A stretch of DNA of 42,429 nt from Caldifarciminota bacterium (GTDB lineage: Bacteria > Hydrothermota > Tepidihabitantia > SM23-42): assembly GCA_020343455.1 (NCBI GenBank), contig CP070795.1, forward strand, positions 1,088,711 to 1,131,139, given 5' to 3'. Shown one piece after another: positions 6,475-38,769 of this stretch. The notes under the pieces are model-generated. The model did no database searches. It saw nothing but the letters and a program-made list of their open reading frames with translations, and was not told the origin of the DNA. Each line of letters opens with the position of its first letter. The stretch's first letter is position 1. Made by a program: the position numbers and the translations under genes.

Positions 6475-6486
6475 CTTGCATCGTCT

Positions 6487-6645
6487 GATCAAGACTACGC
6501 GATACTGAATACCCATTAGACGATACAGGATACACGATACATGATACAAGAAAAGCAAAATTGAGAATTTTGTATTGCGGAAAAACAAAAATACAAAATA
6601 CTTGATTGTCGATCCTTGATACCGGATACATCATGCATGATTACC
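6487..6645. repeat. Degenerate 7-bp-period repeat tract, word GATACNN
   Basis: Nine consecutive heptads can be set from 6487 to 6549; the four from 6522 are GATACA plus a variable last base. A second run in shifted phase covers 6604-6645 with words such as GATACCG and GATACAT. The A/T-rich middle (6550-6603) also fits a 7-bp step, less clearly. Read in the valS direction the word is NNGTATC. No coding sequence is visible. Confidence 0.75.
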
Positions 6646-6649
6646 GAAC

Positions 6650-6727
6650 AGCCGTCCCCGGCTGAAGGCATATCTTCAGTCCGCCTCAGGCGGATGTGTC
6701 CTCAGTCCGCTCAATTGGACGTGTCAG
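6650..6727. repeat. Cluster of four short hairpins downstream of fpg, including an approximately 26-bp tandem repeat
   Basis: Four adjacent inverted repeats: AGCCG/CGGCT (6650-6663), CTGAAG/CTTCAG (6662-6679), TCCGCC/GGCGGA (6680-6694) and GTCC/GGAC (6705-6720). The last two lie in imperfect direct copies that both begin TCAGTCCGC (6676 and 6702) and end with GTGTC. The cluster directly follows the fpg stop on the minus strand and may stop transcription or protect the mRNA end; there is no T-tract. Confidence 0.6.
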
Positions 6728-23293: not shown

Positions 23294-23342
23294 GGTGCAG
23301 GATGCACGGCATAGCGCAAGGCGCATAGAGCATGGGGGACCG
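23294..23342. repeat. Degenerate 7-bp-period repeat tract, word NGCATAG
   Basis: Directly after mnmE, heptads in one phase include GGCATAG (23308), CGCAAGG (23315), CGCATAG (23322) and AGCATGG (23329). About seven units can be set. No coding sequence is visible. Confidence 0.65.
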
Positions 23343-23405
23343 GAGGCACGGAGATCCGGTGAAACGGAGAGCCGCACGTATGTGTGTAGCTTTATGTTGC
23401 AGGTA

Positions 23406-23513
23406 AACACTTCCAACATCCACAACACACAACGAACAACGGTCTGTAACGTCTTCGCAATTCGAAATTAGCAATTGTGGTTATCGAGTATCAAGTATCG
23501 AGGATCCAACATC
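23406..23513. repeat. Degenerate 7-bp-period repeat tract, words NNACAAC, CAATTNG and NNGTATC
   Basis: Three word classes follow one another with a 7-bp step. Heptads ending ACAAC lie at 23420-23440 and CAATTCG/AAATTAG/CAATTGT at 23458-23478. Words ending ATC (GAGTATC at 23486, AAGTATC at 23493) run to 23513. One phase shift separates the first class from the rest. The last class is the same word, in the same orientation to the gene, as the tract upstream of valS. It ends 34 bp before the -35 box of the Lrp-like gene. Confidence 0.68.
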
Positions 23514-23547
23514 AATGCCCATGAATGATCAACCATTTTTTTTCATA

Positions 23548-29672: not shown

Positions 29673-29932
29673 GTAAAGATTACAGTCGCATTCTGTTCTT
29701 CGCTCTTTCCTCAATCGGAACATTTTCGCTGTACGCCAGTGGGTTCCGGGCAATCACCTGGATTCATTCTGCCCGCCCGAGCCAGAGAGATTTCTGTTCT
29801 GCCGCGATTCATTTTGAAAAGCAGGCAAAATGATAGCCAGGTTCTTGCTCACGTCAATACGCATGCTGCGTCGGCACGAGCATGTCAGGGGAGAGGTAGA
29901 TAGGATCGGCTTTCCCTGAATCCGAACGACGG

Positions 29933-30325
29933 TCAGCTGTTTTCCTGTTTGAAACCTGCTATGGCGATTACAATCGCCCAGAAACCAGCCACATAACAGA
30001 GCAACAGGCCTAAGGTACCTATGTAGAGCGCTCCTGCAACAGCACCGGCATGGCCGAGAAGAGCAGTAAGCAGGCCGCCCAACGCGACAAGGAGTCGCTG
30101 TTGTCTGTAATAGAGTGGCCTCACCACAAAGATTATCAACAAACCGAGTACAATTGCAGCAACGCCAGCCAGGATCCCCACATGACCCATATTTCCGCCC
30201 GGATAGACGTCATAGTAGATGGCGCCAATGCTCAGACCGAGGATAGCATTGACGATGCCGCTTCCGGCGATGAGAATGCCACCAATTAAGGCGAGTCTCT
30301 TCGGTATTCGTAACCTGGATCTCAT
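29933..30325 (-). CDS. Small four-helix membrane protein
   Basis: A 130-residue protein with a basic N-terminus (RSRLRIPKRL) and four hydrophobic helices rich in Gly, Ala, Ile and Leu. Family not recognised. The ATG at 30325 is preceded by GGAGG at 7 nt, which favours it over a TTG one codon upstream. No promoter of the local TTGAnn-N16-TAnnnT type was found before it. It stands between two regions without clear genes. Confidence 0.65.
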   Translation of the reverse strand: MRSRLRIPKRLALIGGILIAGSGIVNAILGLSIGAIYYDVYPGGNMGHVGILAGVAAIVLGLLIIFVVRPLYYRQQRLLVALGGLLTALLGHAGAVAGALYIGTLGLLLCYVAGFWAIVIAIAGFKQENS

Positions 30326-30328
30326 CAA

Positions 30329-31026
30329 TAACCTCCTTTGTTAATGGTACGTGCTATACCACAGAAAGGTCGCATCGTTAGGTAGAAGTAACACTAAATC
30401 TCAATCTAATATCTAACTAAATATAAGGCATTAATGCATTTTGTTAAGGTATTTTATAGCGACCACAATATAAGAATAATCGTAGCGTAGGTTCCCGGAT
30501 TCAAGCCGTGCGGTAATTGCTTTCTGTTCAATGGTTAGAAGTTAATACGGTAAGCAGAATGCGGAACCTGATCATTTAACAGTAGGCCTTCGCTGTATTT
30601 GTCGGTAATACGTGGTATATCCATGAAGCCTGGATTCATTCGGACGTGCATCGACCTATGATCAGCGATTTAGATGAGTCGGGCAGAGATCTGCATCGAA
30701 GAGAACGGCTACGTAGATCTGGGCAGTATTTTCAGCATCTTCCTGCGCATAAGCGCCTGGTCTACAGTATACTCAGAAGCCGGGAAGGGGCGTTGTTGCC
30801 ATATATTGGAGTTTGGTTGCGGATTATTCTTAATGTCCGATAACATATATTTCGTAAACTAAAGAACCTATCCAGAAACTGGTCTACCGTGACTGGCGAC
30901 CCAATGCCTCCCCTTCTGGAAACGACAACACAGAATGATCTGCGTGCGGTTTCGACTCGGACGCCTCGTCGCAGAGTTTATTACCGCCATTCACAGATCA
31001 ATTGACCGGCTGTCAGGAATCGGGCA
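30329..31026. other. About 700 bases without a convincing gene
   Basis: Short open frames near 30646-30862 exist in two frames, but neither has a Shine-Dalgarno site, promoter or recognisable motif. A weak 7-bp echo occurs at 30404-30417 (ATCTAAT, ATCTAAC). An inverted repeat, AGGTTCC (30489-30495) with GGAACCT (30563-30569), encloses about 67 nt and could shape an RNA. No tRNA or mobile element was recognised. The stretch may hold decayed genes. Confidence 0.45.
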
Positions 31027-31191
31027 TCAAAGATCAGAGTTGTGTAGCCCCTCCCCTTTCTTCTCCTGTGCCATATAGACGTATCTCACCGGATCACTTA
31101 TGTGGTATCCAGATCGCATGGCCAGGCCCTCATAATACCGACGGAAGACACAATACAGGACAGGGTCAATAAAATACTTGACATTGTCCAT
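31027..31191 (-). CDS. Possible small protein divergent from marR
   Basis: A 54-residue open frame reads MDNVKYFIDPVLYCVFRRYY and ends near NSDL. It looks protein-like, with balanced composition and aromatic residues, but I know no family. Its ATG lies 4 nt below the TGATTATAATCA palindrome, and a TATAAT on this strand ends 6 nt before the ATG. No good -35 box is present. It could be a real small gene, a fragment, or chance. Confidence 0.3.
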   Translation of the reverse strand: MDNVKYFIDPVLYCVFRRYYEGLAMRSGYHISDPVRYVYMAQEKKGEGLHNSDL

Positions 31192-31205
31192 TAATTGATT
31201 ATAAT
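31178..31205 (+). promoter_or_regulatory. Promoter of marR (leadered)
   Basis: TTGACA (31178-31183), a 16-bp spacer and TATAAT (31200-31205). The ATG lies 36 nt downstream with AAAGGAG before it. Confidence 0.8.
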
Positions 31206-31207
31206 CA
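31196..31207. promoter_or_regulatory. Palindromic candidate operator over the marR -10 box
   Basis: TGATTATAATCA is a perfect 12-bp palindrome covering the -10 box of the marR promoter. MarR regulators commonly bind such A/T-rich palindromes and repress their own genes; binding here is inferred. Confidence 0.55.
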
Positions 31208-31241
31208 GGATAGCATATAGGTTCTGAAAAAGGAGATCTTT

Positions 31242-31778
31242 ATGAGTAAGGATCAAAAGAAGGCCTGCGTAGATAAGATCCGCAGATTCAACCGATTTTA
31301 CACCAGGCAGATTGGCCTCCTCACCCAGGGATTGCTCAAGACCCGGTTTCCCCTGACCCAAGCACGTATCATCTTTGAATTGGCGCAGCACGGGCAGTCC
31401 ACGGCAAAGGACATCATCAATGAACTCGATATCGATCCAGCCTATCTGAGCCGCATCCTCAGTGCCTTCCAGAAACAAGACCTCATCCGGAAAGTAAGAT
31501 GCAGATCAGACAATCGCCAGTGGTTGCTGGAGCTGACCGCACAGGGGAAGAAAGCTTTTGTAGTACTCGACAACCGAGCCAGCGACGAAGTCAGAGCATT
31601 GCTTAAGAAGTTGCCCGGTGAAGACCGGCATCGTCTCGTGCGTGCCATGCAGACGATTGAAAAGATCTTGACGGCCAATTCGAAAGCCACTACCGTATTC
31701 CTCCTGCGTTCACAAAGACCAGGCGACATCGGGTGGATGATATATCGCCATGGCGCACTCTATGCTGAAGAATACTGA
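31242..31778 (+). CDS. MarR-family regulator, N-terminal part of a split MarR-GNAT gene
   Basis: The 178 residues comprise a MarR winged helix (LTQARIIFELAQHGQSTAKDI, DPAYLSRILSAFQKQDLIRK, SDNRQWLLELTAQGKKAF) followed by the start of an acetyltransferase domain, LRSQRPGDIGWMIYRHGALYAEEY. The frame then meets TGA (31776-31778) where bifunctional MarR-GNAT proteins usually have glycine (EYG). Without that stop the frame would run to 32171 and give a 309-residue protein of normal length. The regulator half could still work. It has a strong promoter with a palindrome and a good Shine-Dalgarno site. Confidence 0.82.
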   Translation: MSKDQKKACVDKIRRFNRFYTRQIGLLTQGLLKTRFPLTQARIIFELAQHGQSTAKDIINELDIDPAYLSRILSAFQKQDLIRKVRCRSDNRQWLLELTAQGKKAFVVLDNRASDEVRALLKKLPGEDRHRLVRAMQTIEKILTANSKATTVFLLRSQRPGDIGWMIYRHGALYAEEY

Positions 31779-31814
31779 TTCGATGAGACCTTTGAAGCCC
31801 TGGTCGCCCAAATC

Positions 31815-32171
31815 TTGACTCGGTTCATGGACCATCACCACCCCAAGCGCGAACGTATCTGGATAGCAGAGGAGGAAGGACAACCGGTTGGATCGGTTAT
31901 GGTCGCGGATGCTGGTAATTCAGTGGCTCAGCTCCGCCTTCTTCTTGTCGAGCCGCAATCCAGAGGCAAGGGATTGGGCAAACGGTTGATAGATGAGTGT
32001 GTAAGTTTCTCAAGACATGCTGGTTATAAGAAAATGAGGTTATGGACACAGAGCATACTTGTTGAGGCGCGACATTTGTACCAAAAGGCAGGATTCGCAT
32101 TGGTGGAAGAAAAAAAACACAAGAGTTTCGGCCATTCTCTGGTCGCAGAGGTCTGGGAATTGCCGCTGTGA
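31815..32171 (+). CDS. GNAT acetyltransferase part of the split MarR-GNAT gene
   Basis: In the same frame as the MarR part, 31779-32171 encodes FDETFEALVAQ, then RIWIAEEEGQPVGSVMVAD, LRLLLVEPQSRGKGLGKRLIDE (the acetyl-CoA-binding Q/R-x-x-G-x-G loop) and LYQKAGFALVEEKKHKSFG, all intact GNAT elements. A TTG at 31815 could start a shortened 118-residue protein, but it has no Shine-Dalgarno site and would lack the first strands. It is either a recent pseudogene half or is made by readthrough. Only one stop codon separates it from the MarR part. Confidence 0.65.
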   Translation: MTRFMDHHHPKRERIWIAEEEGQPVGSVMVADAGNSVAQLRLLLVEPQSRGKGLGKRLIDECVSFSRHAGYKKMRLWTQSILVEARHLYQKAGFALVEEKKHKSFGHSLVAEVWELPL

Positions 32172-32233
32172 CCAGCAGTCAAGAGAAATTCTCTCGAGGA
32201 AGATAAGAGCATACGCAAGTATTGTGCAGAGAC

Positions 32234-32261
32234 TTGACTATCGATCCAATAAAGATACAAT
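32234..32261 (+). promoter_or_regulatory. Promoter of radical SAM gene (leadered)
   Basis: TTGACT (32234-32239), a 16-bp spacer and TACAAT (32256-32261). The ATG lies 21 nt downstream with AAAGGAG. Confidence 0.75.
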
Positions 32262-32282
32262 CGATGTGCGAAAGGAGATCGT

Positions 32283-32996
32283 ATGGAGTATAGATTCGTA
32301 AAGGATATGAAGGACATCCGCGGTTTCAAGAATGTCCTCAACATCGATTTCAGTCCGAAGAAAACGTGCACGTATGATTGTGTGAATTGCGTGGCGGGCA
32401 GAACGAACTTCCTGATCGGCGAAAGGAAGGAATTCCATCCTGCAGAAGATATCTTCGATGAAATCAAATCGTATATCGATGATAAGGGTGCACCGGATTA
32501 CATTATGCTCACCGGTAGCGGGGAGCCGACGCTCTATGCCGGATTCGGCAGGCTTGTTACCTCGATCAAAGGTGAGTTCAAGGATGTTAAGGCCTGGGTC
32601 TACACCAATTTTTCTCTTCTCCACAGAGATGAAGTCCGCAAAGAAGCGGCGCTGTGTGACATGGTTTGGGGTAATTTAAATACGGTTATTGAAGAAGAGT
32701 TCATGCAGATGTATCGTCCGCACGTATCTGTCACATTGAAGAATGTGATGGAGGGAATAAGAAAATTCAAGGCCGAATACAAAGGGAATTTTGCCATGGA
32801 TACGAGATTTCTAAAAGGAATAAACGATAGCGAAAAGAATGTAAGCGGACTGCGGGAGTTCGTGACCAGTGTCAATCCGGGTAAATACGACATACTCGAC
32901 GCAAAATACGGAGGCCAACCGCTAAGCGAGGACTTTGTCCGGATGGTCAAGGAGAAATTCGCCGGCGTCTCTTTCACAATCGAATTTCATATCTGA
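32283..32996 (+). CDS. Radical SAM protein, COG0731-like
   Basis: A 237-residue protein with the iron-sulfur motif CxxxCxxC in CTYDCVNC (residues 29-36) and TGSGEPTLY, a typical SAM-binding GEP motif. The start NVLNIDFSPKKTCTYDC and the length match the compact COG0731 group, relatives of the wyosine-forming Taw1 enzyme. In bacteria their substrate is mostly unknown, and tRNA modification is only an inference. It is a single-gene unit by its own promoter. Confidence 0.88.
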   Translation: MEYRFVKDMKDIRGFKNVLNIDFSPKKTCTYDCVNCVAGRTNFLIGERKEFHPAEDIFDEIKSYIDDKGAPDYIMLTGSGEPTLYAGFGRLVTSIKGEFKDVKAWVYTNFSLLHRDEVRKEAALCDMVWGNLNTVIEEEFMQMYRPHVSVTLKNVMEGIRKFKAEYKGNFAMDTRFLKGINDSEKNVSGLREFVTSVNPGKYDILDAKYGGQPLSEDFVRMVKEKFAGVSFTIEFHI

Positions 32997-33067
32997 GCAA
33001 GAAAGAGAGAACGAACCAAATCGCACGTTGAAGGAGCCCTTATCCGGAGCGCGGTGAGCGGATCAGA

Positions 33068-33679
33068 TTACTGTATTGTCGCCGACTCCAGGTCCAGCCT
33101 GAGTGTCACCGTAGTATCACCTATGGAAGTTTGAGCCCATCCTTTGACTTCACCGATGCCTCGTGCCAGATAAGCGAAGGTTGTATCGCTACTTTGGATA
33201 TAAGCAATTTCCCAGCAGTCGGTATAATTGCCTGCCGGCACGGATACGTCGACAATTCCGAGCACAATCGCAGCCACGTCCGAATTGACCGTCCATGTGT
33301 TGCCGTTTTCCAGGGGTAGCTCGAGATATCTGTCGGGCACAGTGTCATTCAGACTTTCGTAGACGTAAACGGCGGTGTCGGTTTCATGTATGTAGAACGT
33401 TCCGCTGTCAGAATATCCGTCCAAGGTTATTGACGTGATCCATTCGAAGACGCTCGTACCACCTGCGAGTTGCGTTGTGCCGATGATCTCATCCCGGCTA
33501 TTGCCCATGAAGATAGATATTGTGCCCGGTTGCTCAACAGTCATACCGACCATGTAGTCCCAGGTATTGCCGATACTGAGAGGATAGTAACCATCATTTT
33601 CTCCATCGCCCTCTCCCCCGCATGTGCCAACGAATAGAACGATGCAGGCAAGAAGTATGGACGCGAATATTCTTTTCAT
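33068..33679 (-). CDS. Secreted lipoprotein of unknown function
   Basis: A 203-residue protein. The signal peptide (MKRIFASILLACIVLFVGTC) ends in a plausible lipobox and is followed by an acidic glycine-rich linker and a beta-rich domain (YYPLSIGNTWDYMVG, then many Thr/Asp/Val strands). The YPLxxGNTW motif is common in secreted proteins of several phyla with unknown role. ATG 33679 is chosen over a longer upstream frame because GGGAG precedes it and the signal starts there. Confidence 0.78.
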   Translation of the reverse strand: MKRIFASILLACIVLFVGTCGGEGDGENDGYYPLSIGNTWDYMVGMTVEQPGTISIFMGNSRDEIIGTTQLAGGTSVFEWITSITLDGYSDSGTFYIHETDTAVYVYESLNDTVPDRYLELPLENGNTWTVNSDVAAIVLGIVDVSVPAGNYTDCWEIAYIQSSDTTFAYLARGIGEVKGWAQTSIGDTTVTLRLDLESATIQ

Positions 33680-33738: not shown

Positions 33739-33838
33739 GAAGCATACATGCATATCGTCATTCGTTAATCGGTTACGATGCCCGTTTCGGCCACAAAGGT
33801 GACGGTAACGTTATGAACCGCGGATTACCAATACGGCT

Positions 33839-33950
33839 GACGACAGATGACCGACGATCGAATTCAGATATCGGTCATCTGTGATCCCTCATTGGAGCAA
33901 TCTACTGCTCTATGCACGCTGCGCAATGCCCTTTGCCCCATGCTCCGTGC
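33839..33950. repeat. Degenerate 7-bp-period repeat tract of 16 heptads
   Basis: One unbroken phase covers 112 bp. The first heptads begin GAC or GAT (GACGACA, GATGACC); the last seven (33902-33950) all end TGC, for example CTACTGC and TCTATGC. The tract lies between the divergent lipoprotein and DUF2007 promoters. A misleading longer reading frame from 33847 runs through it into DUF2007. Confidence 0.75.
33843..33882. repeat. Perfect 12-bp inverted repeat inside the heptad tract
   Basis: ACAGATGACCGA (33843-33854) and TCGGTCATCTGT (33871-33882) are perfect reverse complements with a 16-nt loop, so the tract can fold into a strong hairpin. Confidence 0.7.
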
Positions 33951-34011
33951 AAGCTTCTTCATTTCTCAGCGGAGCGTGTTTCAGCCGTGGGCATGTTCTC
34001 AGCCAGAGGTG

Positions 34012-38676: not shown

Positions 38677-38725
38677 CACTCCACGCCACACGCTTAACGC
38701 CTAACGCTCCCTGCTGTACGCTCTA
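38677..38725. repeat. Degenerate 7-bp-period repeat tract, word CGCNNNA
   Basis: Seven heptads in one phase include CGCTTAA (38691) and CGCCTAA (38698). The tract lies just upstream of the FmdB promoter. Read in that gene's direction the units end in GCG. Confidence 0.68.
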
Positions 38726-38769
38726 AACGGCATCGGGATTCTTAACTTCGACAGTTCTCCGGTTCTCAC

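Follow-up and report, generated by a model that had tools for sequence, protein, structure and literature searches.

The STRR repeats of cyanobacteria are near-exact copies of a few heptamer words. In E. coli, quasipalindrome template-switch mutagenesis lets one arm of an imperfect inverted repeat rewrite the other, giving single corrections at hotspots. Heptanucleotides have been reported to outnumber every other class of long simple repeat in most of the bacterial genomes surveyed, and the footprint of the polymerase was put forward as the reason (Mrazek 2007, cited in PMC4679880 and PMC4692102). G-rich heptameric repeats, (GGGAATC)n / (GGGANTN)n and GGGGA(T/C)T, are carried by Xanthomonas and Nostoc (Rehm et al. 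2015, PMC4692102); columns 1-4 and 6 of the unit are fixed, columns 5 and 7 are free, and some of the repeats form inverted pairs. They mostly keep the same gene neighbours, with extensive variation in length and sequence among close relatives (PMC4692102). The TAACTGA repeats of marine Beggiatoaceae, Cyanobacteria and Bacteroidetes consist of exact units, and single-base variants of them are seldom repeated (MacGregor 2015, PMC4679880).

The window, i.e., the whole stretch of DNA analysed here (42,429 nucleotides; G000:C1:1088711-1131139), comes from a 1.9-Mb MAG of an uncultured member of WOR-3 (Caldifarciminota). The WOR-3 candidate division is now named Caldifarciminota. The source genome of the window, G000, has a completeness of 68%, and its "single contig" (L003-L022) consists of contigs concatenated with 100-N joins, in places roughly ordered by size; long-range synteny in it is not meaningful because of these joins. 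G000 was analysed by sampled stretches (442 kb for the comparison of lags and a larger sample for array counts), genes were called by open-frame length alone, and the word statistics rest in part on related loci. The sister species is G004, the nearest relative compared (92% identity), whose MnmE is 94% identical to that of the window.

Period 7 in the window and in related genomes

A sequence-only reading of the window had described intergenic tracts at four loci as built of heptads, and this description was borne out. In the five stretches named (6487-6645, 23294-23342, 23406-23513, 33839-33950 and 38677-38725), identity at lag 7 is 0.55, 0.57, 0.55, 0.51 and 0.60, respectively, compared to ~0.25 at lags not divisible by 7, and lags 14 and 21 are likewise elevated in all five. 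Each stretch is significant against 2000 dinucleotide shuffles of its own (z = 7.6, 4.1, 6.6, 6.1 and 4.2), and no shuffle reaches the observed value. The top 105-bp stretch of the whole window holds 59 lag-7 matches, against 46 for the best among 60 shuffled windows; at other lags from 4 to 20, the best 105-bp stretch of the window never exceeds 47 matches. At 33839-33950, the 16 heptads in one phase and the TGC ending of the final seven were both confirmed. Ordinary genes flank the tracts (valS, fpg, yidC, mnmE, hisS, trkH, corA, a DUF2007 gene and others), and no Rfam family scores above its gathering score anywhere in the window. The features of the window are as follows.

6476..6723, no strand: lineage-specific segment in the valS-fpg spacer; 339 bp of unrelated DNA in the sister species
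6496..6641, plus strand: longest lag-7 segment of the window, ~21 heptads, GATACAN words (score 38.2; z = 7.6 for 6487-6645)
23294..23539, no strand: lineage-specific segment from just past the mnmE stop codon up to the next promoter; 157 bp of unrelated DNA in the sister species
23294..23342, plus strand: heptad array, GCATAGN class (z = 4.1)
23406..23513, plus strand: heptad arrays, CAACACA class then TATCGAG class (z = 6.6; segments 23409-23441 and 23482-23515)
33763..33804, plus strand: copy of a dispersed 42-bp element abutting the reported tract; the G000/G004 break falls inside the element
33786..33995, no strand: lineage-specific segment with the reported tract; 146 bp of unrelated DNA in the sister species
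33833..33892, plus strand: heptad array, GAYGACN class passing into GGTCATC class (lag-7 segment score 15.2)
33843..33882, no strand: imperfect inverted repeat within the preceding array, AGATGACCGA ... TCGGTCATCT (self match in inverted orientation)
33906..33950, plus strand: heptad array, NNNNTGC class, units ending in TGC (lag-7 segment score 14.6)
38677..38725, plus strand: heptad array, TAACGCN class (z = 4.2; lag-7 segment 38674-38707)
38680..38761, no strand: lineage-specific segment adjoining a CorA-type gene; 153 bp of unrelated DNA in the sister species

The signal is not confined to the window. Over 442 kb of G000, intergenic identity at lag 7 exceeds that at the neighbouring lags, and coding DNA is without such an excess. 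Intergenic lag-7 segments number 26 in the G000 sample against 0.2 in shuffles, so that period 7 is in excess genome-wide and far rarer in shuffled DNA; the corresponding counts are 7 against 0.8 in G004, 9 against 0.1 in G007 and 4 against 0.1 in G002. At the threshold used for the lag-7 segments of the window, the more distant WOR-3 genomes G031 and G033 show no arrays. Arrays occur at densities of 1.29 per kb in convergent, 0.76 in co-directional and 0.51 in divergent spacers. Periods 8, 9 and 10 are also present, and period 9 is strong in G002 and G007, with many arrays. Degenerate period-9 arrays with the word CGTTAATNN, in which seven positions are fixed and two are free, were observed at L102 (the mnmE 3' spacer of G003) and in the G002 and G007 samples.

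Units, words and turnover

The repeat units have fixed and free columns, as in GATACxN, CAAATNC and GCATAGN. Among intergenic arrays chosen without regard to their words, the clustering of matches by column is 572.9, compared to 333.5 +/- 23.6 under permutation (z ~10; 0 of 500 permutations reach it). In the array at 33906..33950, columns T7, G7 and C7 are invariant, and the column test beats 2000 of 2000 permutations. Identity between units one to six apart falls steadily (.66,.55,.50,.43,.34 and.31). The column clustering, together with this decay, indicates that units have fixed and free columns and that the word drifts along a tract while the phase is kept. A steady fall with distance is also what heptanucleotide slippage arrays of single origin, decayed by random point mutation, would give, and in many bacteria no class of long simple repeat is as common as heptamers, a 7-nt polymerase footprint having been suggested as the reason (Mrazek 2007, via PMC4692102 and PMC4679880). 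However, the decay is not uniform over columns, and the simplest form of this explanation is already refuted by the column test; inverted copies are over-represented, and the sister species lacks the tracts although neutral sites are 75% identical (see below). We regard decayed slippage as unlikely.

In GATACxN, x agrees between neighbouring units in 54 of 72 cases, where 26 are expected; for N the figure is 17 of 72, against 20 expected. Position 6 is thus maintained through the array, and position 7 shows no statistical dependence on the adjacent unit; some of these arrays lie in coding loops. This 6+1 structure resembles templated plus untemplated addition, as would be made by a reverse transcriptase (of a diversity-generating retroelement, a retron or a DRT-like system) copying a short RNA template and adding one untemplated base per cycle. 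The RVT_1 profile, however, matches nothing in the eight genomes of genus g1, the majority of which have a completeness of 93% or more, and this effectively refutes a reverse transcriptase barring a diverged one below the profile threshold; we consider it extremely improbable.

An unsupervised count of 5-mers repeated at a spacing of 7 singles out GATAC, CAAAT, ACGCT, CTACT and a few others. The earlier statement that each tract has its own word was only half right: many loci, in other species too, share the families GATACxN/GTATC, CAAATNC/ATTTG, ACGCTNN/GCGT and GCATAGN. The pattern GATACNNGATACNNGATAC is found in 23 of 147 WOR-3 genomes, chiefly those of the family to which the window belongs, and few matches are seen to its reversal; CAAATNCCAAATNC has well over 100 matches in the window's family, against about ten for the reversed control. 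Inside array spacers, 8-mer sharing per million is 144 in direct orientation (at least 40 bp apart) and 73 in inverted orientation, compared to 31 and 30 between spacers. Words are copied locally, in both orientations, within a spacer. A G-quadruplex explanation was rejected, as the heptad words (GATACxN, CAAATNC, ACGCTNN, GCATAGN) are without G-runs.

Nearly all of the window aligns with G004, in blocks at 91-93% identity, and the breaks of 80-250 bp in this alignment are the four spacers with the four tracts, at which G004 holds DNA of similar length that is unrelated (339, 157, 146 and 153 bp). At the reported tract, blastn homology stops at 33785 and restarts at 33996 with 88-91% identity; the spacer is divergent, and the point of restart is a promoter-like site of the following gene, TTGACT-N17-TAAGAT. 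The array is only part of the natural unit, as 6476-6723, 23294-23539, 33786-33995 and 38680-38761 are each wholly non-homologous to the sister species. The G004 counterpart of 23294..23539 is also periodic at 7, and spacers replaced elsewhere between G000 and G004 show signals at periods 8 and 10. Furthermore, the site 3' of mnmE carries five different arrays in five species (G000, G004, G003 with period 9, G006 and G016); G008 and G018 have no spacer downstream of mnmE. Separately, at 29731-33631 the two genomes are not collinear, and the window contig moves between G004 regions ~0.74 Mb apart, which reflects a rearrangement or else the concatenation of scaffolds.

Four-fold degenerate sites of mnmE are 75% identical between G000 and G004, at which level neutral DNA would remain alignable. 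The tracts are nevertheless unalignable, thus their turnover outpaces neutral substitution. In these comparisons, all of them between species, the tracts are the fastest-changing DNA of the window, and the suggestion that they are "old" slippage arrays has to be dropped. Since they are wholly different even between sister species, they look unlike fixed control signals. This bears on the possibility that they serve as serial binding sites for a factor that advances 7 nt at a time, be it a repeat protein, an oligomer that binds DNA or RNA, or a nucleoid factor. Fixed and free columns do resemble a recognition motif with a spacer base, and a few word families recur across genomes; even so, the word of a locus is not conserved between species, arrays also lie within protein-coding loops, and the words are very diverse, from CAAATNC to ACGCTNN. 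Binding-site arrays are accordingly quite unlikely.

The G000/G004 break at the reported tract falls inside a 42-bp element, which recurs as ~ten partial copies in the sampled G000 DNA; G004 and G007 hold several as well. The element (GGTTACGATGCCCGTTTCG...AAAAAGGTTACG, then ...CACGAAACCG) often lies directly upstream of heptad arrays (window 33763-33804; L177, L171, L174, L170, L007, L020, L004 and others), and at several loci there is a change to unrelated sequence within its CCCGTTT stretch. Small mobile or dispersed elements copied into different sites would account for the abutment of this element on several arrays, and for the pairs L004/L020 and L174/L177, each of which comprises two related copies of the element plus array. 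Yet no long copies of the window tracts were found elsewhere in ~600 kb of G000, 600 kb of G004 and the samples of G002 and G007, and both species carry different DNA at the same site instead of one being empty and the other filled. An origin from mobile elements is therefore highly improbable.

Heptads inside secreted-protein genes and the question of hairpins

Many GATAC arrays sit in open frames. These coding arrays correspond to two loops of a C-terminal domain matched by Pfam FlgD_ig or Por_Secre_tail, i.e., the C-terminal domains of type-9 secretion, and the host proteins are C25-type peptidases and other secreted proteins. In loops chosen by protein motif alone, lag-7 identity of the DNA is 0.34 in both loops and lag-3 identity is 0.24, near background; in a set enriched for heptad loops, the lag-7 values are 0.43 and 0.42. 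The isoleucine codon ATA has a share of 55% in the motif-chosen loops, compared to 27% genome-wide. In these loops, the DNA period of 7 overrides the period of 3 and is blind to the reading frame. The same loop carries different word families in different genes and species, CAAATTC and GCATAGA among them. Between the G000 and G004 orthologues of one such protein, loop 2 changed at 15 of 51 positions with its length unchanged, and loop 1 changed at 5 of 75. Heptads fill C-terminal-domain loops of C25 (gingipain-type) peptidases and of other putative cargo of type-9 secretion at L213, L212, L152, L021, L510-L513 and L522-L526, and a query from one heptad-loop cargo protein gave 70-100 matches in several genomes of the genus.

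Loop 2 often has the reverse complement of the word family of loop 1. Over 47 domains, loop 1 fits the reverse complement of its own gene's loop 2 better than that of other genes (0 of 20000 re-pairings are as good), and the control in direct orientation is weak. Shared ancestry of paralogues may explain part of this association, not its inverted sense.

Inverted order is also a property expected of RNA hairpins; the tracts would then terminate transcription or form structures at mRNA 3' ends, with stems stepped in heptads. None of 200 shuffles of the 33839 tract folds as well as the tract itself (z = -2.88), the L207 array forms a hairpin with TTTTT behind it where a gene ends, and arrays are densest in convergent spacers. 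Arrays are nonetheless found in divergent spacers as well, the reported tract included, and the two other window tracts that were folded are weakly structured (z = -1.70 and -1.88). In the coding arms of 16 related genes, 38 mismatches pair as G-U only in the antisense strand, compared to 6 in the mRNA strand; this asymmetry points the wrong way for an mRNA hairpin as the driver in coding arms, a suggestive result given that the genes are related. We hold RNA hairpins to be very unlikely as the explanation.

A proposed generator and the known heptamer systems

We lean toward the reading that an error process in DNA synthesis, which steps mostly by 7 nt and by 9 in some relatives, writes the tracts as hypervariable filler. 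The nascent strand would slip back by one unit and recopy it, with most columns faithful and one or two free, and an occasional fold-back would lead to a stretch being copied in inverted orientation. The process would not be directed at particular genes; it would act everywhere and be kept where harmless, and its products would persist in unconstrained DNA, namely from a stop codon to the next promoter and in the two loops of secreted proteins. New arrays would overwrite old ones faster than point mutation erases them. Arrays occur in convergent, co-directional and divergent spacers and are densest where no promoter is needed, a distribution that fits tolerance rather than function at the site. 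The alternative origin offered in the sequence-only reading, a sequence read in 7-nt steps, fails as a locus-specific signal, as sister species have different words at the same site; taken to mean a synthesis process with a 7-nt step, it remains the reading that fits best.

Slippage with fold-back template switching as the generator, the enzyme behind it and the reason for a step of 7 are all what we infer. The free column demands an extra assumption, e.g., one untemplated nucleotide in each cycle. Moreover, the same heptad words recur across many loci and genomes, in other WOR-3 families, in IMG/VR contigs and in another phylum, which is not predicted by purely local copying and speaks against such a model. 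Loss of MutS as the cause was rejected, MutS being present. In the order with GATAC arrays (G000-G026, families f1 and f2), MutS1 matches end at model position ~798-809 of 840, and in most other WOR-3 lineages they reach 839-840. The C-terminal tail of MutS1 thus seems to be absent from this order, judging from the profile matches, and this is a lead from one clade. As to a loss of SbcCD as a permissive cause, metallophosphoesterase matches are only weak in the window's family, and likewise in most of the phylum.

A wider generalisation, which is conceivable and which we regard as doubtful, is that many bacterial lineages have a dedicated or habitual DNA writer with a 7-nt step (~six copied nucleotides and one free), whose product is mirrored into the facing fold-back arm and which would rewrite spacers and secreted-protein loops within the lifetime of a species. 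If so, a 7-nt DNA writer, not codon-level selection, would dictate protein sequence in those loops. The heptad process would be a source, open to measurement, of new bacterial sequence both coding and non-coding; spacers would not merely drift but be overwritten by structured arrays, with frame-blind heptads left in secreted-protein loops. Explicit predictions are made for step size, free column and inverted arms, and an old question, the reason for the dominance of heptamers among the long simple repeats of bacteria, can therefore be tested by mutation accumulation. Degenerate heptad arrays should, with due caution, not be taken for regulatory motifs.

The heptad words extend beyond WOR-3. 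The GATAC word at heptad spacing was found in the phylum of a Desulfobulbaceae MAG, where 12 of 297 genomes have it and one has 31 matches, and in IMG/VR contigs among the matches listed; the IMG/VR arrays are more exact than those of WOR-3. CATAG, meant as the reversed-word control, is a word family of its own, since it is abundant at heptad spacing in other members of the phylum of the Desulfobulbaceae MAG, and the control in the IMG/VR scan is in part for this reason not clean. G247, G416, G361 and G435 (phylum of L050) each have dozens of CATAG- or GATAC-type heptad matches and are promising as further instances of this phenomenon outside the WOR-3 phylum.

In the literature searched, the coverage of which is incomplete, we found no description of the WOR-3 repeats and no earlier account of multi-word, fully turned-over tracts, frame-blind heptads in secreted loops or reverse-complement pairing of loops; this is not proof of novelty. 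Among the known systems, cyanobacterial STRR share intergenic tandem units of 7 nt with the window tracts, which are far less exact (lag-7 identity 0.51-0.60). In quasipalindrome mutagenesis, the likeness lies in one arm rewriting the other, as would happen in WOR-3, and the difference is that the known events do not give arrays. The TAACTGA repeats (PMC4679880) are, like those of WOR-3, intergenic direct repeats of heptamers with a patchy distribution across phyla, and unlike them are exact. STRR had earlier been named as the nearest system, which was reasonable, but the heptamers of Xanthomonas and Nostoc are closer (PMC4692102). As in these, the WOR-3 tracts are intergenic tandem 7-nt units with fixed and free columns, and the arrays lie between the same genes and yet vary among relatives, as in the mnmE spacer of five species. 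Xanthomonas and Nostoc have one G-rich, quadruplex-capable word per genome, whereas the WOR-3 units are not G-rich and have no G-runs. In WOR-3, there are many word families, with several per spacer, which drift in phase and are fully replaced between sisters, and heptads also occur in protein loops as reverse-complement pairs. With these differences, the Xanthomonas heptamers are the nearest described case to the WOR-3 heptads (PMC4692102).
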